A stretch of DNA of 32,725 nucleotides from a bacterium (lineage in GTDB: Bacteria; Bacteroidota; Bacteroidia; Flavobacteriales_D; Crocinitomicaceae). The position numbers were made by a program, and so were the translations under genes. The notes below the pieces were generated by a model. That model was not told the DNA's origin, searched no databases, and saw nothing but the letters and a program-made list of their open reading frames with translations. Positions 1,734-32,725 of this stretch are shown in pieces. Where the stretch lies: assembly GCA_024742305.1 (NCBI GenBank), contig JANSYQ010000036.1:1-32725 (forward strand), read 5' to 3'. How positions within the stretch are numbered: the first letter of the stretch is position 1; each line of letters starts with the position of its first letter.

Positions 1734-4265
1734 TTAATCCAAAGTTTTTGTTCGCAAGCGCAAGGCATTTCCGATTACAGAAACGGAACTAAAACTCATA
1801 GCCAAAGCAGCAATCATAGGAGAGAGAAGTATGCCGAAAAACGGGAACAACACACCTGCGGCAATAGGTACACCAATGGTGTTGTAAACAAGAGCGAAAA
1901 ATAGGTTTTGCTTGATGTTTCTCATAACCGCATCGCTCAAGTTTTTTGCCTTTACAATTCCGTGTAAATCGCCCTTTACCAGCGTAATCATTGCACTTTC
2001 AATGGCGACATCGGTTCCAGTTCCCATAGCAATTCCTACATCGCTTTTGGCCAATGCGGGTGCATCGTTGATACCATCTCCGGCCATTGCCACCACCTTA
2101 CCGCTTTTTTGGAGTTTTTCTACTTCTTTCAGTTTGTCCTCCGGTAACATGTTTGCTTTGAAATCGGCGAGGTTGAGTTCATTCGCAACTGCTTTCGCTG
2201 TTTCCGGGTTATCACCAGTTAACATAATCACCTCGATTCCGCTGTCTTGAAGTTCTTTGATAGCCTTTGCACTCGTTTGCTTTATTTCATCGCCTATGGC
2301 AACATATCCTACAACGTTTGTATCAATTGCCAAATAGGAAACCGTTTTACCTCTCTTCTGAAAAGATGCTGCTTTTTCCAGCATGTCTGAGCTTACCGTA
2401 GCACTGGCGTGCTCCATCATTTTTTGATTTCCGAGACTTACCTTTTTGCCCGAGATTTTTCCTTCTACGCCTTTTCCTGTGATGGCTTCGAAACCTTCCG
2501 ATTGTATTGACTCAATACTGCGTTCTTTTCCGTACTTAACTGTTGCCTCAGCCAAAGGGTGTTCACTGTTTCTGTTAAGGGATACAATGTATTGGAGCAC
2601 TTCATCTTCACTATATTGATCGTTAAACGTCCCGACTTCTTCAACACTTGGTTTTCCTTCAGTGATAGTACCCGTTTTGTCCACGATTAATGTGGTGACT
2701 TCATACATTTTTTCTAAAGCTGCTGCATTTTTCACCAATACGCCCTGTTGAGCACCTTTACCGACCCCTACCATAACAGACATCGGAGTTGCAAGTCCTA
2801 AGGCGCAAGGACAGGCTACGATTAGCACGGCTACTGCATTCACCATCGCGTAAACATAAGCAGGACTTGGTCCCCAAATTGCCCAAACGATAAAAGTGAT
2901 GAGCGAAATAAGGACTACAATGGGTACAAAATAGCCTGAGACAGTATCGGCAACTTTTTGGATGGGTGCGCGACTTCTACTGGCATCATTGACCATGGTG
3001 ATAATTTGCGAAAGCAGGGTATCGCTGCCAACCTTTTCGGCTTTCATTAAAAAGGATTGATTGCCATTAATGGTACCGCTGCTAACTTGATCATCAACCG
3101 ACTTTTTTACTGGAATTGGTTCTCCTGTAATCATGGATTCATCGATGCTAGTACTTCCTTCAATGATGATTCCGTCTACTGGGATTTTTTCACCAGGCTT
3201 TACTTTGAGAATATCATCCTGTTCTATTGAGTCGATGGCGACTTCGATTTCCTCGCCGTCCACCATTTTTGTGGTCTTGTTTGGGGCGAGCTTCAGTAAC
3301 TCTTTGACGGCCGAGTTCGTTTTGCTGTGTGCACGAGCCTCAAGTAACTGTCCCAGTAATACCAAGGTGAGAATGACCGTTGCTGCTTCGAAATAAACAT
3401 GAACTGTTCCTGCCTCCGTTTTGAATTGTTCAGGAAAGAAATCGGGAAAGAGTAGTCCGAAGAAACTAAAAAGCCAAGCGACACCGGCGCCCAGTCCAAT
3501 GAGCGTGAACATATTTGGACTTCGTCTGATTATGCTACTGTAGGCTCGTTGGAAAAACATCCAAGTGGCATAGAAGACCACAGGGATGGAGAGTACGAAC
3601 TGGATCCAGTTCCAATATTTAATCTCAAGTATCTCATGGAGCGGGTTGTTATGGATCATCTCGCTCATGGCAATAATGAAGATGGGCAAGGTGAAGCCTG
3701 TAGCGATCCAAAACTTCTTGGACAACCTATTGTACGTTTTTTCTTCAGCGCTAAGGTCGGGCTCTTTGGGGACGAGGTCCATTCCACAGATGGGACATGA
3801 ACCCGGCTCGTCTTCAACAACTTCAGGGTGCATAGGGCATGTCCATTGTTCGGCGGAAGTGTTGTTATTGAGCGATTGTTCTTCCACTAGGTCCATGCCG
3901 CAAACAGGGCAGTCGCCTGGCTCATCATACTTTTTGTCCCCTTCGCAGTGCATAGGGCAGTAAAAGACACCAGCTCCCTTCTTTTTTGCTACATCTTTGT
4001 GATTCTTGTGGTCGTGATGCCCATTGTGTTTGGTTGTTTCGTCGTGAGTATGGTCATCGTCCTTAGGGTGAATGTCGTAATTACTATCTGCCAAGGCTTC
4101 TTTTAACGTTTCAATCGCGATGTGTGATTCCATCTCGACGGTGGCTTGAGACTTTTCTAAATCCACAGAAGCTTGAATTACTCCTGGCACTTTCGATAGT
4201 GCTTCTTGCACGTGCTTTTGGCAACCCTTGCAAGACATTCCTGATATATGATAGGTATGCTTCAT
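1734..4265 (-). CDS. copA: Copper-translocating P1B-type ATPase
   Basis: This 843-residue heavy-metal P-type ATPase should export Cu(I) across the inner membrane. The N-terminus is an HMA domain with metal-binding GMSCKGC (Cys12, Cys15), then a His-rich stretch (about 70-90) and two small heavy-metal-binding domains of the YCPMHC...CPVCGM type (about 102-129 and 142-166). Eight membrane helices follow. Catalytic motifs are intact: TGEP (390-393), CPC in the sixth helix (485-487), DKTGT with phospho-Asp529, HP (569-570) and GDGINDAP (729-736). CPC plus the HP signature indicates Cu+/Ag+ specificity. It lies 82 bases downstream of the AraC-type regulator on the same strand, consistent with a metal-responsive unit. 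Family assignment is very secure; the exact metal is inferred from motifs. Confidence 0.95.
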   Translation of the reverse strand: MKHTYHISGMSCKGCQKHVQEALSKVPGVIQASVDLEKSQATVEMESHIAIETLKEALADSNYDIHPKDDDHTHDETTKHNGHHDHKNHKDVAKKKGAGVFYCPMHCEGDKKYDEPGDCPVCGMDLVEEQSLNNNTSAEQWTCPMHPEVVEDEPGSCPICGMDLVPKEPDLSAEEKTYNRLSKKFWIATGFTLPIFIIAMSEMIHNNPLHEILEIKYWNWIQFVLSIPVVFYATWMFFQRAYSSIIRRSPNMFTLIGLGAGVAWLFSFFGLLFPDFFPEQFKTEAGTVHVYFEAATVILTLVLLGQLLEARAHSKTNSAVKELLKLAPNKTTKMVDGEEIEVAIDSIEQDDILKVKPGEKIPVDGIIIEGSTSIDESMITGEPIPVKKSVDDQVSSGTINGNQSFLMKAEKVGSDTLLSQIITMVNDASRSRAPIQKVADTVSGYFVPIVVLISLITFIVWAIWGPSPAYVYAMVNAVAVLIVACPCALGLATPMSVMVGVGKGAQQGVLVKNAAALEKMYEVTTLIVDKTGTITEGKPSVEEVGTFNDQYSEDEVLQYIVSLNRNSEHPLAEATVKYGKERSIESIQSEGFEAITGKGVEGKISGKKVSLGNQKMMEHASATVSSDMLEKAASFQKRGKTVSYLAIDTNVVGYVAIGDEIKQTSAKAIKELQDSGIEVIMLTGDNPETAKAVANELNLADFKANMLPEDKLKEVEKLQKSGKVVAMAGDGINDAPALAKSDVGIAMGTGTDVAIESAMITLVKGDLHGIVKAKNLSDAVMRNIKQNLFFALVYNTIGVPIAAGVLFPFFGILLSPMIAALAMSFSSVSVIGNALRLRTKTLD

Positions 4266-4285: not shown

Positions 4286-4353
4286 TACAAAATTGTAGGC
4301 AATTAAACAGGGATGTATTACATAATTTTGGAAAAGAGTTGTAAGATTTACAA
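4286..4353. promoter_or_regulatory. Two short inverted repeats in the araC-copA gap
   Basis: The gap before copA holds two related dyads: TACAA-AA-TTGTA at 4286-4297 and TTGTAA-GAT-TTACAA at 4339-4353, the latter overlapping the stop of the AraC-type gene. Both use the half-site TTGTA/TACAA. The first lies about 20-30 bases upstream of the copA start codon, where an operator would act. The second could also be a small hairpin. The sequence shows only the symmetry; the regulatory role is inference. Confidence 0.35.
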
Positions 4354-4908
4354 TTCGTCCAAAGGCTTCCTGTGAATTGGACGTAACTTCTTGAAGTGAG
4401 TGGGGGTAAGTCCAGTTATCTTTTTAAATTGATTGCTGAGATACGCTACGGATGAATAATTCAATTTATGCGCAATTTCATTCAATGTTAACTCGTCATA
4501 GACAAGAAGTTCCTTGACCTTTTCTATTTTTTGGAGAATGTAATATTTCTCTACAGTCATCCCTTCCACCTCCGAAAAAAGCTTACTCAAAGCACTGTAG
4601 TCCTGATTCAATTCTTGGCTGAGATAGTCGGAGAGGGTAAGGTTTAGGTTATTATTTTTATTTTGAATCACGTCAGTGATCAGGTTTTTGATCTTCTCGA
4701 TTTTCTGCCTCCTTTTGTCGTCTAGAAGTTCGAAACCAACTTCAAGCAGTGCCCTCTCTAATTGTGTTTTTATTTTAGAAATGTTGTTCTCCTGAATCTC
4801 TACCTCGCCTAGCTCTATTCGAAGTGGAGTAAGACCAATCGTTTCGAGTATTGATTTTACCGCTAGTTTGCAGCGGTTACAGACCATATTTTTGATGTAG
4901 ATTTTCAA
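4348..4908 (-). CDS. AraC-family regulator with HMA-like N-terminus
   Basis: This is a 186-residue predicted transcription regulator. The C-terminal ~100 residues contain an AraC-type double helix-turn-helix, including 'LTLNEIAHKLNYSSVAYLSNQFKKITGLTPTHFKK', given here only as the recognisable pattern: the second helix-turn-helix ends in the F-K-x-x-T-G-x-T-P-x-x-F-K signature. The first 75 residues start MKIYIKNMVCNRCK with Cys10 and Cys13 in the position of the CxxC of HMA metal-binding domains, and continue like a ferredoxin-fold HMA. Direct metal sensing by this domain is a reasonable inference. It is immediately upstream of copA on the same strand, so copA is the likely target. The fold assignment of the N-terminus rests on CxxC position and length only. 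Confidence 0.85.
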   Translation of the reverse strand: MKIYIKNMVCNRCKLAVKSILETIGLTPLRIELGEVEIQENNISKIKTQLERALLEVGFELLDDKRRQKIEKIKNLITDVIQNKNNNLNLTLSDYLSQELNQDYSALSKLFSEVEGMTVEKYYILQKIEKVKELLVYDELTLNEIAHKLNYSSVAYLSNQFKKITGLTPTHFKKLRPIHRKPLDEL

Positions 4909-5530: not shown

Positions 5531-5593
5531 TTTTTTTACCGGAAATTACAGAAACTTTGTGAAAATCGAGTTTGGAAAACAATCTGGATTCGA

Positions 5594-6349
5594 CTAGTTT
5601 ATAATCCCTAGTGCTTGGCAAACATCCTTCTTTCGACGTGCAGCAACGGTGATTACCGAGCCGTCAGATAAAACTAAATCGCCCGTTTTACCTCGAATGT
5701 ATTTTGTGATGTAATTGATATTGACGATGTTCGATTTGTGAACTTTAAGAAAATTCGCTTCCGTTAGAATTTCTTCATACTCCGCCATTGGTTTAGAAAT
5801 TAGCATTTTCTTGCCGCCTTTCAAATAAAAATTACAGTAAGCTCTATCGGCTTCACAGCGAATAATATCATCCACATCCATGAATTCGATTCCCTCGGCG
5901 GTTGGTAAAGCAATTTTGGAAAATGAATTATTACCCTGTGCCATGTTTCCGTTGAGTAAGGTAACCTGATCGTTGTAATAGTTTGAATCTGAGGATCGCT
6001 CTTTGCACTTTTGAATGGCCTCTTCCAACTCCTGCACATTTAATGGTTTCAATAAGTAATCCATCGCGGCATATTTAATTGCTTTGATGGCATACGCCGC
6101 ATGAGCTGTGGTGAATATAACTTTGAAGTTTACTGTTTCAAGTGACTCTAATAAATCAAATCCGCTTCCTCCGGGCATTTCCACATCTAGAAAAACAACA
6201 TCCGGACTTTTTGAAAGAATTAATGTTTTCGCCTCAATGATATTTGCTGCTGACCCAACTATTTCAACATCAGGGCAAAACATTTCAATCATTTTAGCAA
6301 TTGATAATCGCACCTGTTTTTCATCATCCACAATAACACATCGCAACAT
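5594..6349 (-). CDS. LytTR-type response regulator
   Basis: This is a 251-residue cytoplasmic DNA-binding response regulator. The receiver domain (about 3-120) is complete: acidic pair Asp8-Asp9, phospho-acceptor Asp55 (VFLDVEMPGG), Thr80/81 and Lys101 (LLKPL). The C-terminal ~100 residues are a LytTR DNA-binding domain with the typical 'VDDIIRCEADRAYCNFYLKGGKK' opening, quoted only as pattern, and 'FLKVHKSNIVNINYI'. LytTR proteins bind two direct repeats spaced about two helical turns apart. It is 15 bases downstream of the degenerate LytS-like gene and presumably co-transcribed. Because that partner has lost its catalytic His, the phosphodonor must be elsewhere or the receiver is used without a cognate kinase here. 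Confidence 0.93.
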   Translation of the reverse strand: MLRCVIVDDEKQVRLSIAKMIEMFCPDVEIVGSAANIIEAKTLILSKSPDVVFLDVEMPGGSGFDLLESLETVNFKVIFTTAHAAYAIKAIKYAAMDYLLKPLNVQELEEAIQKCKERSSDSNYYNDQVTLLNGNMAQGNNSFSKIALPTAEGIEFMDVDDIIRCEADRAYCNFYLKGGKKMLISKPMAEYEEILTEANFLKVHKSNIVNINYITKYIRGKTGDLVLSDGSVITVAARRKKDVCQALGIIN

Positions 6350-6364
6350 AGTAGCTTGTTTTGG

Positions 6365-7069
6365 TTAGTTTTCTGGGAATGTTAACTCCACTTCACATCC
6401 TCGTTGTATTTCCGAACTATCAAAAAGACTATATCTTTTAATTTCGTAGGCATTTTTACCCTTTATTGCATTTAAGAAGCCGCGTCTCGATTCTTTACAC
6501 TTGAAATCTTTAATACGAATCGCTTGTTGTTTCCTTCTCTGCAATTTACTCATATTTTCCTTATCTCTTGTAGTAGCAGAAAAGGTCATAGTCACCTGAT
6601 TCGAAATGTTTACTTTGTAATTCATAAAGAATACAGGAGACTTGCAGTTGACACTTAAAATCCAATCAATTACTTCTGCTACGTACGGTTGAACGTACAT
6701 GGCAGGCACCAAAACTTGGCTTGAATCGAGCTTTTTGGGGATCTTCCAATCAAAGGTATACGGCTTCGAATGCGACATTAACTTGATTTCGATATACTTT
6801 TCAATAAACTTAATTTCTTTGCTTAAGGGAACTGCTTCCTCCTTAATATTGTCTGTTGATAGTCGTACTAACTTTGTCACTGAGGAGAGAAGGGCCAAAA
6901 ACTCTCTCGGCTCTTTGTTTAATGCATAGAATTGAAATGAACTTAAAACATCCAAAATGAAGCGTTCATCGAGTTGAGAATTTAAAAGCATGGATCGCAT
7001 GTGAAGATCTGTTCTTCTACTTTTTTTCGGGATCTGCGAGGATGCTTTATGTTGTTTACTTCTTAACAT
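6365..7069 (-). CDS. Degenerate LytS-like histidine kinase (pseudokinase)
   Basis: This 234-residue soluble protein has no membrane segment. Residues about 28-140 align by eye with the LytS/His_kinase module: helix 'LNSQLDERFILDVLSSF', then 'LLSSVTKLVRLS', 'VPLSKEIKFIEKYIEIK', then 'VPAMYVQPYV'. The family signature Q-I-N-P-H-F-L-F-N is here Q-L-D-E-R-F-I-L-D, so the phospho-accepting His is Arg36. The N-box 'QPFVENAIxHG' is replaced by QPYVAEVID (127-135), losing the key Asn. No glycine-rich ATP lid is visible. It is therefore probably catalytically dead and may act as a binding partner of the downstream LytTR regulator. Internal ATGs at codons 24 and 27 are alternative starts; the ATG at 7069 is only 5 bases from a promoter-like AAAATTTG, which favours one of them or a leaderless message. 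Confidence 0.75.
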   Translation of the reverse strand: MLRSKQHKASSQIPKKSRRTDLHMRSMLLNSQLDERFILDVLSSFQFYALNKEPREFLALLSSVTKLVRLSTDNIKEEAVPLSKEIKFIEKYIEIKLMSHSKPYTFDWKIPKKLDSSQVLVPAMYVQPYVAEVIDWILSVNCKSPVFFMNYKVNISNQVTMTFSATTRDKENMSKLQRRKQQAIRIKDFKCKESRRGFLNAIKGKNAYEIKRYSLFDSSEIQRGCEVELTFPEN

Positions 7070-7074
7070 TTGTC

Positions 7075-7240
7075 CAAATTTTCTAAGACGTCCGTATAAT
7101 TGGAATACCAGTCTTCCCAGCGTGAACTATGACTTTCCCAACGGCATTTCTCTCTTTTTTCGCTCAAGTTACTTTGGGAATACCACCCTTACCTTTGGGA
7201 AGTTAAGCTCGAAAGCGACCAATTGAGATGTTAAAATTTG
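7075..7240. promoter_or_regulatory. Divergent control region with mirrored direct-repeat operators
   Basis: Rightward arm: TGGGAA at 7175-7180, 15 bases, TGGGAA at 7196-7201, 31 bases, AAAATTTG at 7233-7240. Leftward arm (minus strand): TGGGAA at 7140-7135, 15 bases, TGGGAA at 7119-7114, 31 bases, AAAATTTG at 7082-7075. Both spacings are identical on the two sides. On the right the repeat extends to the 9-mer CTTTGGGAA with exact 21-base periodicity, the geometry known for LytTR-family sites. AAAATTTG resembles the -7 box TAnnTTTG, and no -33 TTG is at the usual distance, as expected for activator-dependent promoters. Binding by the adjacent LytTR regulator is inference. Confidence 0.6.
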
Positions 7241-7268
7241 TAGTCATACAAACCCTAAAAGAAGCGGA

Positions 7269-8432
7269 ATGTTACTTCAAGAGCGCATAAGTACCCAGAA
7301 AAGTGAAGACCTAGAAGATATATATTCTTCGACTGTGATGATTGTTGAGCAAGACGAGGCAGCAAAAGATGTATATCGTAAAGCTTTCGACGAGGAAAAT
7401 GTTGAGGTTTGCTTTTTTAGCTCGGGATCCGAGGCTTATCAGTTTTTTTTAGATGCCCAAAATGTGGTGATCATCATAGTTGGGTTTGATTTATCCGACA
7501 TGATAGGGATAGACTTCATTTCCCTTTTTAAAAATTATAAAAGCAGTGAAATACCTGATATCGTTTTTAGTCGAAACAAAAACGACTACAACGGAATACA
7601 ATGTGCTTTTGAGTTAGGAGTTTCACAAGTGATTAACATACATAATGAGCCAAAATTAGTTCGAATTACTTTGCTGTCACTCTTGCGAAATGCCACAAGG
7701 AGACAGATGATACAGAACAATACCCTTCGAATGAAACAAAGGACGGAATTGTTGGAGCGAAATTATCACACCCTGCAAAACAGTTTGGACCATAGCCAAT
7801 TCATTCAAAAAGCATTATTTCTCACCGAAGAGACCATTGAGTCGAAGTTCGACAACTTATTTGTAATTAACAGGGCGAAACATCAAATAGGTGGTGATTT
7901 TGTTTGGATAGATACAATTAATTCAAAATTCATCAGCATTTGCGCAGATTGCACCGGACATGGGATTTCAGGAGCAATGCTTTCTACCTTGAGCTATGTG
8001 ATCATTGAAAATATTATTCGTGGTCAAAGAGTTTTCGATCCAGGTGAAATATTGACCCTGTTGCATCGTCAGTTTAACTGTTTATTTAATACATCGCAAA
8101 GTCAATGCGGAGCCGATATCTCAATTTGTGTGCTTGATACCTTCACAAAAAAATGGGAGTACGCCAGTGCAAAAGGAAAGTTAGCGGTGTTGAGCGACGG
8201 GGAATGTCGTAAGCTCGAATCACAGCGAATTTCAGTTGGTAATACCTACAAACCGGAATATCGCTTTGAAACAAAAGTTTTGGAATTGAAGGAAGGAGAT
8301 TTGCTTATTCAGTATTCAGACGGAATTACCGATCAATTTGGCGGACATAACTTTAAAAAGTTCAGTCAGAAGCGTATCGAGAAAACATTTAAAGATAACG
8401 TTCAATTGCCAGCATTTTTCGTGAGAAAGTAG
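7269..8432 (+). CDS. SpoIIE/PP2C-type phosphatase with pseudo-receiver, C-terminally truncated
   Basis: This 387-residue protein has an N-terminal receiver-like domain (about 20-145), a coiled-coil linker (about 145-185), then a SpoIIE-type Ser/Thr phosphatase domain. In the receiver the phospho-Asp position is Gly72 (IVGFDLSDMIG) and the conserved Lys is missing, so it should not be phosphorylated. Phosphatase metal motifs are present: GGDF (208-211), DCTGHG (Asp227) and YSDGITDQFGG (Asp351). The domain stops soon after 'KFSQKRIEKTF': the final ~30 residues, including the usual C-terminal metal-binding Asp-Asp motif, are absent. The stop at 8430-8432 lies in what seems to be a deletion junction with the next gene. 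Activity is therefore doubtful. It is divergently transcribed from the pseudokinase-LytTR pair and probably shares its control. Confidence 0.8.
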   Translation: MLLQERISTQKSEDLEDIYSSTVMIVEQDEAAKDVYRKAFDEENVEVCFFSSGSEAYQFFLDAQNVVIIIVGFDLSDMIGIDFISLFKNYKSSEIPDIVFSRNKNDYNGIQCAFELGVSQVINIHNEPKLVRITLLSLLRNATRRQMIQNNTLRMKQRTELLERNYHTLQNSLDHSQFIQKALFLTEETIESKFDNLFVINRAKHQIGGDFVWIDTINSKFISICADCTGHGISGAMLSTLSYVIIENIIRGQRVFDPGEILTLLHRQFNCLFNTSQSQCGADISICVLDTFTKKWEYASAKGKLAVLSDGECRKLESQRISVGNTYKPEYRFETKVLELKEGDLLIQYSDGITDQFGGHNFKKFSQKRIEKTFKDNVQLPAFFVRK

Positions 8433-8482
8433 AGGCAATAAAGGAAGAGGAGATTTCTGTTCAGGGACAGATTTACAAAAAC

Positions 8483-9340
8483 ATGGCTTACACGTGGTAT
8501 CATTTTATTACGCAGAACTTCGTCCTGTGTTATCGGCATGCGCAAGATTGGGTAGGACTTCTAGCCTCACATGAAGTGATTCTGAAAAATGAGCCCATCC
8601 TGTACCTCAAGGGATTGCACAATGTGCAGTCTGCCTTGTTTTACTCCAACAAGCCACGTCAATTTGAGAAATCATTTAATGAATTGCAGTCATTCGTATC
8701 GGAGCGTTCAGAGTATTTTGATGAGAACACGCGATTGCTGTCGGAAGTGTACTTGTACATGGGTCGATTGAACACTTTATTTCTATCAGGCAAGTTTCGT
8801 GGAAACGAAGTATTCATAGAAGATTTGAACAATTGGCTAACGCGTCACGAGCAGTATCTTGATCTGAATCGTTTTCAGGTATTTCACTACAAAATTGCAT
8901 CGCTTTATTTCGGCGCAGATGACTTCAAGAATTGCATTGTACACCTGAACAAAATCATCCATGCCGATGTTAAGGAAAAGTCGTTAAAGCAAGACGTTCA
9001 ATGTTTCGCTCGAATTTTGAATCTTGTTGCTCATTTTGAGTTAGGGAACGACGACTTAGTGGAGTACCAATTGAAGAGTACCTATCGTTTCCTACATAAA
9101 TACGGCGATTTACAGAAGGTACAGGAGTATATTATGCATTCCATCCGAAAGGCAATGATGACCCAAAAGAATGAAGTTATTCCCTTGTTTGAGGAATTGA
9201 AAAATCAGTTGGAAGAAGTCTTCGATGACCCTTACGAGCAGCGTCCACTTTTGTATTTGGATTTAATTTCTTGGTTGAAAAGTAAGATATCAGGGCGATT
9301 GGTAGAGGATATTATCCGCGATCGCCAAGTAAAACGATAG
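8483..9340 (+). CDS. N-terminally truncated TPR-like family protein (probable gene remnant)
   Basis: The 285 residues from the ATG are helical and TPR-like. They resemble the C-terminal half of a roughly 500-residue Bacteroidota family; the hallmark block is 'DVQCFARILNLVAHFELG' followed by 'LEYQLKSTYRFL' (here VEYQ) and a final 'DPYEQRPLLYLDLISWLKSKI'. The reading frame is open upstream of the ATG back to 8399, and the residues it would encode (REKVEAIKEEEIS...) also look like the family. Coding therefore seems to extend to the junction near 8400, where the first ~200 residues are missing. It lies in another frame from the phosphatase whose tail overlaps this stretch. If translated, it probably depends on coupling to that gene. 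Family identification is from memory of conserved patterns. Confidence 0.65.
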   Translation: MAYTWYHFITQNFVLCYRHAQDWVGLLASHEVILKNEPILYLKGLHNVQSALFYSNKPRQFEKSFNELQSFVSERSEYFDENTRLLSEVYLYMGRLNTLFLSGKFRGNEVFIEDLNNWLTRHEQYLDLNRFQVFHYKIASLYFGADDFKNCIVHLNKIIHADVKEKSLKQDVQCFARILNLVAHFELGNDDLVEYQLKSTYRFLHKYGDLQKVQEYIMHSIRKAMMTQKNEVIPLFEELKNQLEEVFDDPYEQRPLLYLDLISWLKSKISGRLVEDIIRDRQVKR

Positions 9341-19511: not shown

Positions 19512-20762
19512 TCAATGGTCGGCTTCGGAAATGATTTCTCTCGTTGCCAGATCAATGGTTACTCCCCAACAAGGCAAAACTACAGTTTCCGACTGATTTT
19601 TATAAACAGATTCCAACTGTGGGGCCATTGCGTCGTATTTGGAATCGTCCACTCCCGCTTGTCGCATAAGAGTTGAGGCGTACAAATAATTGCATTTTCT
19701 CTCAAATGTTGATTCTCCGCATGAGTTTGCTGTGGCAGCCACACATATCGCTTGAATTTGAAGTGCTTTGTTTTTTAGTTCGCCTGTGACACTCTTTGCC
19801 GCTGTATAGGCCTTATGATATGACCCTTTTTGCAAATAGCAATCGGCAATACTGTACTGAATTTCATTCTTTTTTACTTCGTCTGAGGTTTCGCGCTGAA
19901 GTTCTTTGTAGTTAGGAATACGTTCAGAACACGGTATTGGGTCGGGCCAAGGATCAAACGCATAAGGATCATACGTAGTGATAGAGTCTGCGAGCTGATC
20001 AAAAACATCCAAATCTTCGCATTGGTGCGCAATAAATAGTTGTCCTAAGTTCATTAATGCTGTCTTTTTATCAGCGTTGTTTTCGGGCAGTGATGCCAAG
20101 TAAGGTGTAACGAGATAAGCAAGGTCATTACATGAAGTAATCACATGCGCCACGTACTTTGTCAAAGTTGATTGTGTGTTGCTACTGTAATGAATATTGA
20201 TCAACTTGGAAAGTTCTAAATATTCGGACAAGCAACGTTTTTTCAATACTTCTTTCTCTTCCACATCTTGTTCGAGATACCAAAGCGAGTATAAGTTATA
20301 GTAATAAAGCAATATGTACACTTCATCTTCCAGTTCTGTCCCTTGCGTTTTGATTCCGCGTGACATGTAGAAATCTGCTTTCTCGTAGTCTGGTGTCTTC
20401 AAGATTGAATAATGGTAACCGCGAGACATATCATCAACAGGGTCGTAGTGTCCGTTTTCTTCTGCTTTGTCCCAAGCAAACATCAATGTATCAAGGTAGG
20501 CGTAGTAATCATCTGATTTCTCTTCTAGTGTTTTTATCACGATTTGGACACAAGCCAACAAACGGTCATAGTTGTCTTTGCCAAATTGAGGGCAAACGGC
20601 CTCCGCCTTAATGAAAAATGTGGTCGCTTCTTTCCAGTTTTCAGTGGCTGCGAATGAAGAGCTCGTTACTTTGATGAGTCGAGCGCATTCCCGATTATCT
20701 TGGGTAAAAGATAGTTGGTTAAAATATAGAATAAATAGAAGAATGATAGATAAGCGTAGCAT
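19512..20762 (-). CDS. Secreted Cys-rich TPR-like protein, paralogue 2
   Basis: From the ATG at 20760-20762 this is a 416-residue protein with a signal peptide (MLRLSIILLFILYF...SFTQ). It is a clear paralogue of the protein encoded at 21352-22599. Shared blocks include 'ENWKEA', 'FGKDNYDRLLA', 'YYAYLDTLM', 'DDMSRGYHY', 'LLYYYN', 'KKTALMN', 'KKNEIQY', 'CVAATANSCGESTFERKCNY' and 'PCWGV'. The repeated 'A-x2-YY/F-x-KA' pattern suggests TPR-like helices, and about nine Cys are conserved, as in an exported disulfide-bonded protein. One difference is a Pro-rich 'YDPYAFDPWPDPIPC' replacing a helix of the paralogue. It follows lptC by 32 bases. Function is unknown; the position suggests the cell envelope. 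Confidence 0.75.
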   Translation of the reverse strand: MLRLSIILLFILYFNQLSFTQDNRECARLIKVTSSSFAATENWKEATTFFIKAEAVCPQFGKDNYDRLLACVQIVIKTLEEKSDDYYAYLDTLMFAWDKAEENGHYDPVDDMSRGYHYSILKTPDYEKADFYMSRGIKTQGTELEDEVYILLYYYNLYSLWYLEQDVEEKEVLKKRCLSEYLELSKLINIHYSSNTQSTLTKYVAHVITSCNDLAYLVTPYLASLPENNADKKTALMNLGQLFIAHQCEDLDVFDQLADSITTYDPYAFDPWPDPIPCSERIPNYKELQRETSDEVKKNEIQYSIADCYLQKGSYHKAYTAAKSVTGELKNKALQIQAICVAATANSCGESTFERKCNYLYASTLMRQAGVDDSKYDAMAPQLESVYKNQSETVVLPCWGVTIDLATREIISEADH

Positions 20763-20794
20763 TAACAATAGAACGCTAATTTGAGTGCCTTATT

Positions 20795-21355
20795 TTAATT
20801 ATCCAACTTTCCTTCCGGCTTGGTTATTTTGTACGAATCGAAGGTTTGCTTGGTGGTAATGCCCATGCCTCTACCCGTAATTCCTTTGCCTTTCTTTTTG
20901 ATGACGCAGTACTTTTTGGTGAAGATGGTGCTGTCGGTTTGGTTGTAAAACAACTCTTCGGTTTCCAAGTACTGCTCCTTTTCATAGTTATAAAGCACGA
21001 CTGAGTCTCGAACGAACATCAATCCAGTGTTGTAATTTACTTCACCATAAATAGCGGTAAGGGTAGAGCTAACGCCGCCGGTATCGTTGAAGAAATCAAC
21101 GCGAAGACCGTCTTTGAGGCGTGTGATGTGCTTGGGTTTCTTTACTGTTTCGGCAAGGGTTGCCTTGATACGTACTTGCGCATACCCGGAATCAGTATAG
21201 ATGATTTTAAGGTTTTGTGTGACTTCGTCAGGAGCGCCTTCGTCATAGGTGACTTTCTCAATGGCATCCATATCGTTTACACACGAAAAAAGAATACCTG
21301 CCATGAAAATCACAGCAGGTACTCCGAAATATATTTTAATACGTGATTGCATCAT
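20795..21355 (-). CDS. lptC: LPS export protein LptC
   Basis: This 186-residue LptC-family protein bridges the inner-membrane ABC transporter and the periplasmic LPS conduit. It has an N-terminal hydrophobic segment ending in FSC, a lipobox as in many Bacteroidota LptC proteins. The beta-jellyroll follows: 'NLKIIYTDSGYAQVRIKA', 'DGLRVDFFNDTGGVSSTLTA', 'GEVNYNTGLMFVRDSVVLYN' and 'ETEELFYNQTDSTIFTKK', the characteristic LptC strand pattern. The ATG at 21353-21355 overlaps the stop of the upstream gene as ATGA, so translation is coupled; a second ATG follows directly. The rest of the Lpt system is not in the window. Confidence 0.88.
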   Translation of the reverse strand: MMQSRIKIYFGVPAVIFMAGILFSCVNDMDAIEKVTYDEGAPDEVTQNLKIIYTDSGYAQVRIKATLAETVKKPKHITRLKDGLRVDFFNDTGGVSSTLTAIYGEVNYNTGLMFVRDSVVLYNYEKEQYLETEELFYNQTDSTIFTKKYCVIKKKGKGITGRGMGITTKQTFDSYKITKPEGKLDN

Positions 21356-22599
21356 GGACACGGGTTCACCGTAACTCCCCAGCAAGTCAATGTCACTGAT
21401 TTAGGACTGTTGTTATTGAAACAATCTTCAGTTGAAGGTCCCATGTTTCTGTATTTTGAACCGTCCAGTCCAGCTTGCTCCATCAATTCTGCTGCGTAGA
21501 TGTAATTACATTTTCTCTCGAAGGTTGAATCTCCACAAGAGTTTGCAGTAGCAGCTACACATCCCGCTTGGATTTGAAGTGCTTTTCCTTTCAAACTTCC
21601 TGTCACACTCTTCGCTGCAGCATACGCGTTGTTGTAAGATCCAATTTGCATGTAACACGCAGCGATGTTGTATTGAATTTCGTTCTTCTTCTCAGCGTCA
21701 AATGTCTTCTCTTTGATGTCTTTGTAAACTGGAATTTTCTCACTACACGAAAGCGTTTCAAGATACAACAACTGAATTTCAAGATCCTCCGGATCAATTT
21801 CGTACAATGTTTCTACCATCATAGCGAACTCTTCAGAGTCTTTACACTCTTGATCAATCAAAAGCTGAGCAAAGTTCATTAATGCTGTTTTCTTGTCTTC
21901 AGGAGCTTCAGGAAGCGATTCCATGTATTTTGGAACTGCTGGTAGCAAGTCTTCACATGAAGTAATCAGCTGAGAAAGGTAACCCGTAAGTGTCTCCTGT
22001 GTTGAAAGGGAATAGTTCGCTTCCTTGATCAACTTTGTCAACATAAAGTACTCGTTGATGAAACGTTGTTTCAACTCTTCTTTTGCTTCTGCATCTTGCT
22101 CAACAAACCACAATGAGTAAATGTTATAATAGTACAACAACAAGTACACTTCATCGCTCAATTCTGTTCCTCTCGCTTTGATAGCGCGGCCCATGTAAAA
22201 GTCTGCCTTTTTGTAGTTTGGCGCTTTTAAAAGTGTGTAATGGTATCCACGAGAGATATCATCATTGATATCGTAGTGACCTGCTTCCTCTGCTTTGTCC
22301 CATACCATCATTAACGTATCAAGATACGCGTAGTAGGCATCGGATTTATCCTCTTGAGCAGCCATCATATTTTGCGTACTGGCAAGCAATCGGTCGTAGT
22401 TGTCTTTTCCGAACTCTGCACAGTATTCTTCTGCTCGAATGAAGTATTCAACCGCTTCTTTCCAGTTTTCAACTCCCATTGCATTATTGGCAACCACTCG
22501 AAGTCGCGTACACTCTCTATCTTCTCCCTCACCTTCTTGTGCGAAGGCTGTAGAACCGATCAATAATGAAGCTACAATTAGTAATTTTCCTAGTTTCAT
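21352..22599 (-). CDS. Secreted Cys-rich TPR-like protein, paralogue 1
   Basis: This 415-residue protein has a signal peptide (to about residue 20, STAFAQ). The mature part is helical with TPR-like repeats ('AVEYFIRAEEYC', 'AYYAYLDTLMMVWDKAEE', 'KADFYMGRAIKARG', 'AACYMQIGSYNNAYAAAKSV') and about nine Cys shared with its paralogue downstream of lptC. The end 'LTCWGVTVNPCP' resembles the paralogue's 'LPCWGVTIDLAT'. The gene lies 39 bases after the outer-membrane barrel gene and its stop overlaps the lptC start, so it is translationally coupled to LPS export. A periplasmic role in envelope assembly is a contextual inference only. Confidence 0.78.
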   Translation of the reverse strand: MKLGKLLIVASLLIGSTAFAQEGEGEDRECTRLRVVANNAMGVENWKEAVEYFIRAEEYCAEFGKDNYDRLLASTQNMMAAQEDKSDAYYAYLDTLMMVWDKAEEAGHYDINDDISRGYHYTLLKAPNYKKADFYMGRAIKARGTELSDEVYLLLYYYNIYSLWFVEQDAEAKEELKQRFINEYFMLTKLIKEANYSLSTQETLTGYLSQLITSCEDLLPAVPKYMESLPEAPEDKKTALMNFAQLLIDQECKDSEEFAMMVETLYEIDPEDLEIQLLYLETLSCSEKIPVYKDIKEKTFDAEKKNEIQYNIAACYMQIGSYNNAYAAAKSVTGSLKGKALQIQAGCVAATANSCGDSTFERKCNYIYAAELMEQAGLDGSKYRNMGPSTEDCFNNNSPKSVTLTCWGVTVNPCP

Positions 22600-28458: not shown

Positions 28459-31400
28459 TTAATGCTGCGTAATGATCCACTTCTGAACGAATTGTTGTTC
28501 CTCCGTCGTCACCGTTACGTAGTATATTCCAGGCTCAAATTGTGTTCCATTCAGCGCTATTTCTGAATTGAAATCCTGAGCTTTTAATGTCTTTTCAAAT
28601 AGTAGTTTACCCGTTTGATCGGTGATGGTCAAATCACCTTGTTTCGCAATTCCCGCGTGAACGATTAAATGCGAGTTTCCAGTAGATGGGTTCGGATACA
28701 ATTCAGCCCAATTACCGGAGACACCACAATCAACTGCGATAAGATCAGAATATTCATATTCTCCGTTAAAATCTACCTGTTTCAAACGATAATAAACAAC
28801 GCCATTTCTTGGTGCATTATCCACTACCACGTACTGATGTGATTGAGTGCTTGTTCCTTGTCCCGAAACCACATCAATGGTTTCAAATACTTGAGCATCT
28901 CCGCTTCTTTCCACCACAAAATAATCGTTGTTGTGCTCCGATTCCGTTGTCCAAGAGAGCACCGTTTCATCTCCCTGACAGAGCGCATTGAACTGGCTCA
29001 ATTCCACTGGGAGCGGATCTACCGAACCAAGAAGGGTGATGTCGAAGTCACAGTCGTTTCCTGCGTACCCATCAATGGTGATGTAGTACAATGTGTTTGG
29101 AGGCAGGGTAACCGGCCCCCATATCAAATCATTGGTATTCCCTTGATTGGCGCAATACACGTTGGTATAGTTAGCTGTGTCGCATGGTGCGCCGGTGATT
29201 TGATTGATTGAAACCTGAATTCCATTCGAAGATGGAGTACATGTTGTATTGGTGATTTGTAATTCTACTTGCCCTCCGGTAGAATCTGTTTGGAAGAAGT
29301 ACCAAACGGTGTTCTCCAAAGTTGGATTTCCACATGGGAACAGTGGGTCAATGCCCGGGCTTGTAGTGGCATTACTCGTCTGACTTATGGTTGTAGAACC
29401 GATGCCGAGCTGTGTAGCGTTCGAACAATAATCATTACAGTTCTGCCAAGTTGCAGCCGTTGTCGTCATGGTATCGTTCCACGTAATTTGATCCACAACG
29501 CCATTCGGCAATGCACACCAAGCAGTAATCACACTTCCACTTGAAGGAATGGTCACGTTTGGAATGGAAATCGTTTGTCCCTGTCCATACGGAATGCTTA
29601 GCCCAGTGAATGTTTGCGTCACAGGCGCACCTCCATCAATGGTATACGTAATGTCAATCGAAGTAATCGTATCCGATGTTTGACAAAGCTTGTTGTTATT
29701 GAAAACCGTTATTTCCATGAAGTATTCGCTTCCATAACAGCCGTCAATCAAAGTTAATTCTGCATCGATGTCTGTATCTGTTATGCGTACATTATCGAAG
29801 GCGAAATAGTGGTGTCCTGTATAAGTTGGTTCTGAATAATACGGACGTCCACGCATGCGGAATTTTACACACGATTCACCCACGAGATTACAAAGTGCCA
29901 TTCGAACTCTCTGCCACTCGTCTACCGGATTAGAAATGGAGTTTCTCCAGTAATTCGTTCCGTTGTACCATTCAGGATCGGGACCGTTTCCTAACTGAAT
30001 CCACGTTACACCCCCGTTAATACTGTACTGCACTTGGAAGTAATCGGAGTTGTGCAATTGATGTTTGATATCAAATTCAAGTGTTGGGTTCGTTAATGTG
30101 GACAAATCAAACACAGGGCTTTCCACCCAAACCCACGAACCATTATTACTGGCTGTTGTTTCTACGTACCAGGAATCGCCTTGGCCTTGAGGTCCGTTCA
30201 AATATGGAAGATTGCCCAGTACAAAGTTTCTTCCACCATTCAGTGGAGGAGCACTTCCGCTCGCCAACCAGTAACCGTTACCAGCATTGAAATCTTCTTC
30301 GTAAGGGAAAGTATTGATAGTTACTTGGTTCACATCAATGACCAAAGTACTGGTGTCATTATCGTTTTTAATGTCTGTTGGAAGCTGCGTGTAGCTAACA
30401 AAATTGTACGTGCCAATCGTCGTCATGTCGATGGTCGTAGGAAAGGTGAAGTTTACGGATCCATTCGCTGGAATTGGTCCGGGAACCGTTCCTGTCAATG
30501 TGGTGTTCAACGCTCCGGTAATATCACATGAAATCGGAACATTTGATTCCGGTTGACAGCTGAAATTGAATACTTCTACAGTCACGTTTTGTGTCGTGCT
30601 ATACAAACACCCTTGATCAACAGGTTCAACAAATGCTACCACGCCAACATCGCCTCCTTCTAAAATCTCGAAGTTATCAAACGCGAAGTAATGATGTCCG
30701 GTGTAGGTTGGCTCAGAGTAATACGGTCGTCCGCGGAAACGGAACTTCACGCACGGCTGTCCTGCCAAGGCACACAAACTCTTCTGCACTTTGGTCCATT
30801 GATCTACCGGATTGGAAATAGAGTTTCGCCAGTAGCCGTTGGAGTTGTACCAGTTCGGTTCCGTGGAACCAAGAGCTGTCCAAGTCGCCCCACCGTTGAG
30901 TGAATATTCCACGCGGAAATAATCGGAGTTGTGCAATTGATGCTTGATATCAACGTACAATTGCGGATTGGTAAGTCCTGAGAAATCAAAAACCGGACTT
31001 TCTACATCAATCCAAGCTCCGTCATTCGATGCGCTGGTTTTCACGTACCAAGAATCACCTTCACCTTGCGGCCCGTTGAGATACGGCAGCGTGTCTAAGT
31101 GGAAGAGTCGCGTATCGCTTGTTGTTCTCGATACCCAGCCGCCGTTGTCGGTATTAAAATCTTCGGTGTACGGGAAAGTAGCCACGGGAGCCCCGCTGTA
31201 TCGTACTTCCACAATATTATCGTTTGCCGGATTGGCATCTGTGGCCAAGTTGGTGGTTACCGAAATGGTATGTGTTCCAACAGTACTTAAATCAAAAGTG
31301 TTGGTGAAGGTGTAGATGTAGAATCCGAATGCTGGAATAGGTCCGGGCATAATTTCCGTTGTAACGGGACCGCCGTTCACTTGAATATCGACAGGGACAT

Positions 31401-32725
31401 TGTAAAGCGGTCGGCAGGTCATGTTTTCGATCACCACGCTCATGGTTTCAACGCCGTACGTAGAGCAATCTCCAGCATCAGCCAAGGTGATTTCCAACGG
31501 ACGAATGTCATCGGGTTCTCCTGCGTCAATGGCAAAGTTGTCGAATCCGAAATAGTGATGTCCGGTGTACGTCGGCTCTGAATAATACGGACGTCCACGC
31601 ACTCGGAACTTCACACACGGTTCTCCGGAGAGTTCGCAGAGTTCTTGCTCAACGGTTAACCAAGCATCTTGCGGCGTAGAAATGGAATTTCTCCAATAGT
31701 TGTTTCCGTTGTACCAAAGCGGGTCAGGACCACTTCCCAATTGAACCCACGTTGCGCCTCCGTTAATGCTGTACTGCACTTGGAAGTAATCAGAGTTGTG
31801 TAGCTGGTGCTTTATGTCCATGGTCAGCGTTGGATTGGTCAAGTTGGAGAAGTCAAACACAGGACTTTCCACCCAAACCCACGAACCGTTGTTGCTAGAA
31901 GTTGTTTCTACGTACCAAGAATCGCCCTCACCTTGTGGACCGTTCAAATATGGAATGTTGCCCAAAACGAAGTTACGACCACCGTTCAATGGAGGTGCGC
32001 TTCCACTGGCGATCCAATAGGCATTTCCTGAGTTGAAATCCTCGAGGTACGGATAGGTGTTCACCAAGAGTTGATCGACCAAAATAGATGTTCCCAGCGT
32101 ATCGTTCGGGAGATAAATATCTCCTGCAAGATTGGTGTAGGAGACAAAATTGTAGGTTCCCACGGTCGACATATCGAAGGTTCCTGAGAAGGTGTAGCTT
32201 ACGGATGTCCCCGGTGCAATGGGTCCGGGAACAGTGCCTGTAAGCGTAGTAGTAACAGGTCCAGTGATGTCGCAAACGACGGGAACGTTCGAGATGGGTG
32301 TACAACCAAAGTTGTAAACATCGACCGTAACAATTTGATTGGCGGAGAAGGAACATCCAACATCCACAGGGTCTTGATAGGCCACGATTCCCACGTCGGG
32401 ACCATCTTTGATTTCCACGTTATCAAACGCGAAGTAATGATGTCCGGTGTAGGTTGGTTCCGAGTAATACGGTCGTCCGCGGAAACGGAACTTCACGCAC
32501 GGCTGTCCTGCCAAAGCACACAAACTCTTCTGCACTTTGGTCCATTGATCTACCGGATTGGAAATAGAGTTTCGCCAGTAGCCATTGGAGTTGTACCAGT
32601 TCGGTTCTGTAGACCCGAGCGCTGTCCAAGTCGCCCCACCGTTGAGTGAATATTCCACGCGGAAATAATCGGAGTTGTGCAATTGATGCTTGATATCAAC
32701 GTACAATTGCGGATTGGTAAGTCCT
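28459..32725 (-). CDS. Giant modular T9SS-exported protein (C-terminal part; gene continues past the right edge)
   Basis: The last 1421 residues are visible and the frame is open to the window edge, so the true start is outside. It is built of repeated ~290-residue modules. Each module has a jellyroll ('EDFN...G.W', 'PYLNGPQGEGDSWYV', 'VESPVFDFS.LTNP', 'DIKHQLHNSDYF', 'RGRPYYSEPTYTGHHYF', MAM/concanavalin-like) and a ~100-residue Ig/CARDB-like domain with paired Cys. After the last jellyroll come a CARDB-like domain, a Cys-containing domain ('DYCSNATQLGIGST...ENTVWYFFQTD'), a fibronectin-like domain ('PVELSQFNALCQGDETVLSWTTESEHNNDYFVVERS' region) and a type A T9SS sorting domain ('LYPNPSTGNSHLIVH...GIYYVTVTTEE'). 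It is probably a surface adhesin or matrix protein, by analogy. A terminator follows at 28389-28424. Confidence 0.9.
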   Translation of the reverse strand, partial: GLTNPQLYVDIKHQLHNSDYFRVEYSLNGGATWTALGSTEPNWYNSNGYWRNSISNPVDQWTKVQKSLCALAGQPCVKFRFRGRPYYSEPTYTGHHYFAFDNVEIKDGPDVGIVAYQDPVDVGCSFSANQIVTVDVYNFGCTPISNVPVVCDITGPVTTTLTGTVPGPIAPGTSVSYTFSGTFDMSTVGTYNFVSYTNLAGDIYLPNDTLGTSILVDQLLVNTYPYLEDFNSGNAYWIASGSAPPLNGGRNFVLGNIPYLNGPQGEGDSWYVETTSSNNGSWVWVESPVFDFSNLTNPTLTMDIKHQLHNSDYFQVQYSINGGATWVQLGSGPDPLWYNGNNYWRNSISTPQDAWLTVEQELCELSGEPCVKFRVRGRPYYSEPTYTGHHYFGFDNFAIDAGEPDDIRPLEITLADAGDCSTYGVETMSVVIENMTCRPLYNVPVDIQVNGGPVTTEIMPGPIPAFGFYIYTFTNTFDLSTVGTHTISVTTNLATDANPANDNIVEVRYSGAPVATFPYTEDFNTDNGGWVSRTTSDTRLFHLDTLPYLNGPQGEGDSWYVKTSASNDGAWIDVESPVFDFSGLTNPQLYVDIKHQLHNSDYFRVEYSLNGGATWTALGSTEPNWYNSNGYWRNSISNPVDQWTKVQKSLCALAGQPCVKFRFRGRPYYSEPTYTGHHYFAFDNFEILEGGDVGVVAFVEPVDQGCLYSTTQNVTVEVFNFSCQPESNVPISCDITGALNTTLTGTVPGPIPANGSVNFTFPTTIDMTTIGTYNFVSYTQLPTDIKNDNDTSTLVIDVNQVTINTFPYEEDFNAGNGYWLASGSAPPLNGGRNFVLGNLPYLNGPQGQGDSWYVETTASNNGSWVWVESPVFDLSTLTNPTLEFDIKHQLHNSDYFQVQYSINGGVTWIQLGNGPDPEWYNGTNYWRNSISNPVDEWQRVRMALCNLVGESCVKFRMRGRPYYSEPTYTGHHYFAFDNVRITDTDIDAELTLIDGCYGSEYFMEITVFNNNKLCQTSDTITSIDITYTIDGGAPVTQTFTGLSIPYGQGQTISIPNVTIPSSGSVITAWCALPNGVVDQITWNDTMTTTAATWQNCNDYCSNATQLGIGSTTISQTSNATTSPGIDPLFPCGNPTLENTVWYFFQTDSTGGQVELQITNTTCTPSSNGIQVSINQITGAPCDTANYTNVYCANQGNTNDLIWGPVTLPPNTLYYITIDGYAGNDCDFDITLLGSVDPLPVELSQFNALCQGDETVLSWTTESEHNNDYFVVERSGDAQVFETIDVVSGQGTSTQSHQYVVVDNAPRNGVVYYRLKQVDFNGEYEYSDLIAVDCGVSGNWAELYPNPSTGNSHLIVHAGIAKQGDLTITDQTGKLLFEKTLKAQDFNSEIALNGTQFEPGIYYVTVTTEEQQFVQKWIITQH
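29775..32725 (-). repeat. Tandem ~870-base modules in A-B-A-B order inside the giant gene
   Basis: Approximate modules, from the right edge: A (partial, 32725-32065), B (32050-31180), A (31170-30310) and B-like jellyroll (30300-29775). A units read 'FRVEYSLNGGATWTALGS', B units 'FQVQYSINGGATWVQLG'. The A copies at 32420-32725 and 30674-30979 differ at nine of 306 bases by eye, and all nine are silent. The A-to-A offset is exactly 1746 bases (582 codons). A and B differ far more. Confidence 0.85.

Follow-up and report, generated by a model that had tools for sequence, protein, structure and literature searches.

The 199-bp spacer at 7070–7268 raises the question of what drives transcription out of it in both directions. 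It lies between a leftward unit encoding a kinase homologue and a LytTR regulator and a rightward gene encoding a receiver–PP2C protein. The window is the whole stretch of DNA that was analysed, 32,725 nucleotides. The arrangement TGGGAA-N15-TGGGAA-N31-AAAATTTG is present in both arms of the spacer on opposite strands (7175–7240 on the plus strand and 7140–7075 on the minus strand), and the TGGGAA pairs, the N31 interval and AAAATTTG were all located as the original prediction had described them. On the comparisons presented below, the segment 7075–7240 probably consists of divergent LytTR-activated promoters that would be autoregulated and would place a SiaA-like phosphatase under the same control.

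The LytTR response regulator (5594–6349, minus strand) has a receiver and a LytTR domain (Pfam Response_reg, 7e-22; LytTR, 2.5e-15). In alignments its receiver is intact, retaining Asp, Lys and the customary acidic residues as a pair, and the protein is the presumed binder of both arms. Eight proteins of this genome, itself included, match it at E <= 1e-20. The first gene of the leftward unit (6365–7069, minus strand) encodes a degenerate LytS-type histidine kinase homologue (Pfam His_kinase, 4.6e-10). When this protein was aligned with intact kinases, PHF was found to be replaced by ERF and the N box and DxGxG to be gone; the phospho-accepting His, the N box and the G box of a LytS kinase are therefore all lost. 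The rightward gene (7269–8432, plus strand) encodes a degenerate receiver, in which Gly replaces the phospho-accepting Asp in the alignment, and a SpoIIE/PP2C phosphatase domain (Pfam SpoIIE, 4.1e-15). The latter is SiaA-like and falls short of SiaA proper, matching the NCBIfam SiaA model at 4e-24 with 85 bits where the cut-off is 700.

Comparison with relatives gave a 10-bp half-site, ACGTTGGGAA, with a period of 21 bp, of which TGGGAA is the 3′ part. In the left arm (minus strand) the proximal half-site ACGCTGGGAA occupies 7114–7123, with TGGGAA at 7119–7114, and the distal half-site CCGTTGGGAA lies 21 bp away at 7135–7144, with TGGGAA at 7140–7135. In the right arm (plus strand) the distal half-site ACTTTGGGAA occupies 7171–7180 (TGGGAA at 7175–7180), and 21 bp from it the proximal half-site CCTTTGGGAA occupies 7192–7201 (TGGGAA at 7196–7201). 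These half-sites are imperfect, with 2 and 3 mismatches per pair relative to ACGTTGGGAA, which counts against the promoter reading. LytTR operators are described as direct repeats of 9–11 nt with a spacer of 11–13 nt (PMC4847170); both arms have two direct 10-bp half-sites and an 11-bp spacer. The consensus half-site given for AgrA is (TA)(AC)(CA)GTTN(AG)(TG) (PMC8826819), and AACGTTGGG matches it at 9/9 positions, the window half-sites by eye at only 7 to 8 of 9. The LytTR-type periodicity that had been proposed is thus borne out, since half-site, repeat length and spacer fall within the published AgrA and LytTR descriptions. The accompanying suggestion, that TGGGAA is not a known LytTR site and may be a new motif, did not hold, because the full half-site ACGTTGGGAA agrees with the AgrA consensus. 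TGGGAA as a non-LytTR motif was dropped after the relatives had revealed ACGTTGGGAA.

The motif had been picked post hoc, which favours the view that the likeness of the two arms is due to chance. A genome search for the exact TGGGAA pair, proposed with the original prediction, returned five occurrences against none for the reversed control; the three beyond the two arms all lie within open frames of 597–650 codons. Dinucleotide shuffles of the 199-bp region were scored for any hexamer repeated with a period of 16–30, the same period being required on both strands and overlaps being excluded, and only two of 20,000 qualified. A looser version that allowed palindromes and overlaps (375 of 20,000) was set aside as flawed. 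A site matrix was built from 17 hand-chosen sites, of which none came from the window or from G201 (the related genome introduced below) and one came from another contig of this genome. Built from other places, it nevertheless singles out the window arms, which score 27.5 and 22.5; the next-best window position scores 11.9, and none of 8 million first-order random positions scores as high as either arm. Chance repeats were ruled out by the matrix scores and the shuffle test. The chance explanation is weakened further because equivalent arms exist in the G201 region, where period and N31 are shared, and its probability is negligible.

Among the matches listed, no orthologous locus and no kinase or phosphatase orthologues were recognised in 33 same-genus genomes. 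A search for phosphatase orthologues in a genome-contig collection gave a single distant archaeal match of 43 residues only. In a 399-genome sample of the order, the kinase gave nothing above 34% identity at E <= 1e-17, and the phosphatase search led to G201, which belongs to the same family and another genus. The G201 LytTR regulator is 69% identical to that of the window, and the PP2C protein across the spacer is 36% identical. There, the LytTR gene runs in the same direction as two others, one for a kinase-like protein and one for a small protein that matches SprB weakly; the PP2C gene is divergent, its product having an intact C-terminus and matching the SiaA model at 1e-41 (143 bits, cut-off 700). 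The kinase-like protein lies below the Pfam cut-off (E 0.01), has 19% identity to that of the window and was matched by position and weak similarity; the two may be related by shared decay or by position, which is not proven orthology. None of the three catalytic elements was seen in the G201 counterpart. Kinase-like proteins without His and ATP-binding motifs stand next to an intact LytTR receiver in both cases (window 6365–7069; G201 L106 5148–5813).

With ATG 6591 taken as the phosphatase start, the G201 spacer has a leftward arm ACGTTGGGAA-N11-ACTCAGGGAA-N31-TAGTTTTG and a rightward arm ACAGTAGGAA-N11-ACGTTGGGTA-N31-TACTTTTA. The 21-bp period and N31 are kept in both arms of this orthologous intergenic region, which is the conservation that the original prediction had named as a check, seen here in another genus in place of close relatives; the arm-to-arm distance is, by eye, unlike that of the window. 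Within the genus to which G201 belongs, the three other genomes gave no match to the regulator at E <= 1e-72. G201 has a second divergent pair (L106 1638–1919), in which a gene whose product weakly matches a type IX tail faces one for a receiver–PAS–LytS kinase with catalytic motifs. This second region holds two sites, one good and one partial. In G321, a LytTR–phosphatase operon is preceded by one good half-site with a poor partner (6 mismatches per pair) and a gene for a SprB-repeat subtilase that carries a type IX tail by a pair with 4 mismatches, each at N31 to TAGGTTTG. The regulator of G154 is 53% identical to that of the window and has ACGTTGGATA-N11-ACGTTGGGAA 82 bp upstream of its gene; the best −7 box there is at N42, not N31, which tells against the promoter reading. 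The LytTR homologue of G056 (49% identity) belongs to a different operon, and the 8-kb stretch examined there yielded no site.

The −7 box of Bacteroidota, TAnnTTTG, is described as spanning −12 to −5 (PMC9723704). Both window copies of AAAATTTG (7075–7082, minus strand, leftward; 7233–7240, plus strand, rightward) have five of the six fixed bases and were scored as −7 boxes; the first T is absent from both, a point against the promoter reading. The left arm of G201 has 6/6 fixed bases at N31. The fixed distance to a −7-like box had been part of the original prediction, as had promoters in both directions: N31 occurs in both window arms with support from the sites of relatives, and G201 keeps the same divergent layout with N31 to a box in both arms. 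With the boxes placed at −12 to −5, the predicted starts are 7245, with a 24-nt leader, and 7070, and both repeat pairs are centred at −59; AgrA repeats are reported to be centred about −60 (PMC4227749). The leftward start would fall one base before the ATG and leave no leader, which also counts against this reading. The leftward transcript would then be leaderless, or the true start codon would lie downstream and the leader would be longer. By eye, no −33 TTG stands 19–21 bases upstream of either box. Its absence had been noted correctly, but as a hint of an activator it says little, because the account of Flavobacterium johnsoniae promoters in PMC7366714 identifies no −33 motif either.

In the mechanism that we propose, each arm would bind two copies of the LytTR response regulator at its two 10-bp half-sites, which are separated by two helical turns and have their centre at −59. 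The bound regulator would bring in the housekeeping sigma-A polymerase at a weak TAnnTTTG-like −7 box that has no −33 element; activation would come about through contact with polymerase. The leftward arm would activate the regulator's own operon in positive feedback, and the rightward arm would co-induce the SiaA-like PP2C phosphatase. The regulator would act once phosphorylated by a kinase encoded elsewhere, a step proposed because its operon partner is without catalytic residues. Repression from the same sites is a further reading, for which the LytTR protein CoxC gives a precedent, being described as a repressor with an operator that overlaps the −35 box (PMC11347149). We consider repression unlikely here, because the centre of the sites, at −59, is upstream of the polymerase box, as in AgrA promoters, and the box is weak and has no −33.

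The pattern ACGTTGGGAA-N11-ACGTTGGGAA was sought with <=3 mismatches in 240 genomes of the family, with the reversed pattern as a control. The 34 same-genus genomes yielded 54 matches, including the two window arms, and the control gave 6. Outside the genus there is no excess, because 54 matches (three in G201 and one in G154 included) stand against 66 for the control by hand count. At <=2 mismatches the figures, by our own count, are 22 of the 54 same-genus matches and 3 of the 54 outside the genus. Forty sites were inspected, namely 36 of the 52 other same-genus matches, favouring few mismatches, and four from G201 and G154; 36 of the 40 fall outside called ORFs, and two of the 36 overlap an ORF start. 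All loci collected, with window copies excluded, amount to 68 distinct sites. Among them a box within 1 mismatch of TAnnTTTG occurs at N30–32 in 18 cases (11 at N31), compared with 19 cases for the remaining 32 offsets between 15 and 49. Eight of the 13 best sites (0–1 mismatch) have no box within 1 mismatch at N29–33, and this too counts against the promoter reading, although one of the eight belongs to the G012 array described next but one. A half-site followed by N31 and a box, with <=1 mismatch, was found only 12 times against 4 for the control in the genus and 32 times against 36 outside it (hand count). In G012 (L181 5158–5289) five half-sites in 21-bp phase are followed by N31 and TAGATTTG, with the box after the last repeat; the gene behind this array has a DUF7793 match and a weak SpoIIAA-like match.

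The motif is linked to LytTR genes across the genus. A group of LytTR proteins, clade B, was found at E <= 1e-65 in 12 of the 34 same-genus genomes that formed the scope of the search, this one included (G000:C53:33128-33856); G201, G154 and G321 lie outside that scope. Sites with <=2 mismatches outside the window occur in 10 of the 12 clade B genomes and in 1 of the 22 without (p = 5e-6). The exception, G003, has four such matches and no clade B gene found in a genome that is 79% complete. All 12 clade B genomes have a match with <=3 mismatches within 8.3 kb of the clade B gene (that of G033 being inside a called ORF), and all 12 same-genus matches to the half-site, N31 and box fall in clade B genomes. 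In the window, G201, G154, G017 and G012, sites lie upstream of a LytTR gene or of a LytTR-containing operon. Autoregulation, judged likely in the original prediction, is supported because the sites stand in these places. We considered whether the sites might belong to another DNA-binding family, the LytTR neighbourhood being incidental. Binding by a LytTR protein is a prediction, which leaves room for such a reading, but consensus and period agree with LytTR, sites co-occur with LytTR genes and several genera show them before LytTR genes or operons, so that it appears very unlikely.

Which LytTR protein would read the sites is a separate matter. Clade B proteins are 48–57% identical to the window protein in the LytTR domain and 23–31% in the remainder. 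Twelve other LytTR proteins have receivers 37–53% identical to that of the window and LytTR domains only 28–45% identical. In a tree of LytTR domains the window and G201 proteins stand beside clade B, and in the receiver tree they do not; the comparison is one of topology only, support for the joint node not being given. The window regulator had been proposed as the reader: that a LytTR gene is present in the leftward unit stands, but a second LytTR protein, G000:C53, tracks the same motif. Both regulators of this genome are candidates, because clade B tracks the motif and the LytTR domains are alike. The clade B protein might be the regulator that matters, or the two might compete, with the cassette joining a resident regulon. 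The genus-wide tracking and the likeness of the LytTR domains speak for this, as do further sites of this genome at C40 and C23, before genes for a short exported-looking protein and an OmpA protein, whose likes also have sites in G018, G021 and G027. The G201 arms, however, occur along with a window-type regulator, and the 53%-identical regulator of G154 has a site before its own gene. We regard precedence of the clade B protein as possible, though rather doubtful.

The genes of the preferred reading lie in a foreign-looking block. The G021 genome has, one after another, genes for a hexapeptide protein, a FabH-like protein and a 514-aa protein; in the window the second of these and the beginning of the third, both intact in G021, are replaced by a block from ~5531 to ~8404–8410. 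The remnant of the third gene (8404–9340, plus strand; ORF 8483–9340, 285 aa) marks the right edge of the block. The last 285 residues of the G021 protein match the window at 8483–9340 with 88% identity (87% in G018). The GC content is 37.7% in the block and 42.4 and 42.5% on the flanks. That a lower-GC block stands here in place of sequence present in G021 suggests an acquired cassette at 5531–8404. At 8404–8432 the phosphatase gene ends early at the block edge, entering the remnant in another frame. The alignments show that the window phosphatase is without the C-terminal QTDD...IG segment kept by G201 and G321, and its activity appears doubtful. Elsewhere in the window, an AraC-type regulator (4348–4908; Pfam), with an N-terminus that by eye resembles a heavy-metal-binding domain, adjoins a P-type ATPase-like gene (1734–4265; by eye). 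At 19512–22599 similar-looking 418- and 415-aa proteins flank a 196-aa gene in what looks by eye like a duplication.

Pfam searches of the genes behind sites identified SLBB/Poly_export genes (G010, G003), SprB-repeat subtilases with a type IX signal (G010, G016, G321), OmpA protein genes (G000, G027), a lone receiver and a haem-binding-domain protein (both G004), and PAS/GAF sensor proteins (G004, G017, G032). Kinase genes are also preceded by sites. A short exported-looking protein recurs behind sites in G000, G018 and G021 (by eye; no Pfam match), and the remaining genes gave no Pfam family match. Judged by eye, a 1415-aa open frame at 28459–32706 of the window contains several nearly identical long repeats, and its C-terminus resembles a type IX sorting tail. 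The genes behind sites suggest control of surface life, and we infer surface and matrix as the theme of the regulon. Tentatively, and as a reading that is less likely than not, we put forward a LytTR regulon of two branches, with unlike receivers, a common type of DNA-binding domain and one operator ~31 bp before a −7 box. Its targets would be surface proteins, the export of matrix and a phosphatase switch of the SiaA-like kind. The locus in the window would be its mobile branch, a cassette of regulator and pseudokinase plugged into the resident regulon through the common operator.

LytTR operators, autoregulation and such layouts are already known, and LytTR regulators are common in these bacteria. 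In a literature survey that was far from exhaustive, we came across no paper that characterises a LytTR operator from this phylum. The motif, its 21-bp phasing and the N31 rule can serve as a concrete key in searches for such regulons, and the arms offer a simple test of LytTR activator action at a promoter without a −33 element.

Four known systems were compared with the locus. As in the SiaA biofilm phosphatase, the PP2C domain matches the SiaA model; the scores in both the window and G201 are unlike those of SiaA in lying below the cut-off, and the window protein also differs in beginning with a degenerate receiver and being truncated. The Streptococcus mutans LRS operons (HdrRM and kin) are described as activating themselves by way of paired repeats that lie upstream of the promoter, which is proposed here too; in them the partner of the LytTR protein is an inhibitory membrane protein, whereas the window has a full response regulator. 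The reported sites of Escherichia coli YpdB are likewise two direct repeats 21 bp apart (GGCATTTCAT), but differ in half-site sequence. The agr P2 and P3 promoters of Staphylococcus aureus are divergent, and the partner transcript is an RNA. Unlike agr, the window has a box of the TAnnTTTG type, a half-site extended by AA, a degenerate kinase homologue in the operon and a PP2C phosphatase gene, not an RNA, as the partner. As in the descriptions of agr, paired LytTR repeats of the AgrA consensus stand before each of two promoters, with their centre near −60, and one of these promoters serves the regulator's own operon.
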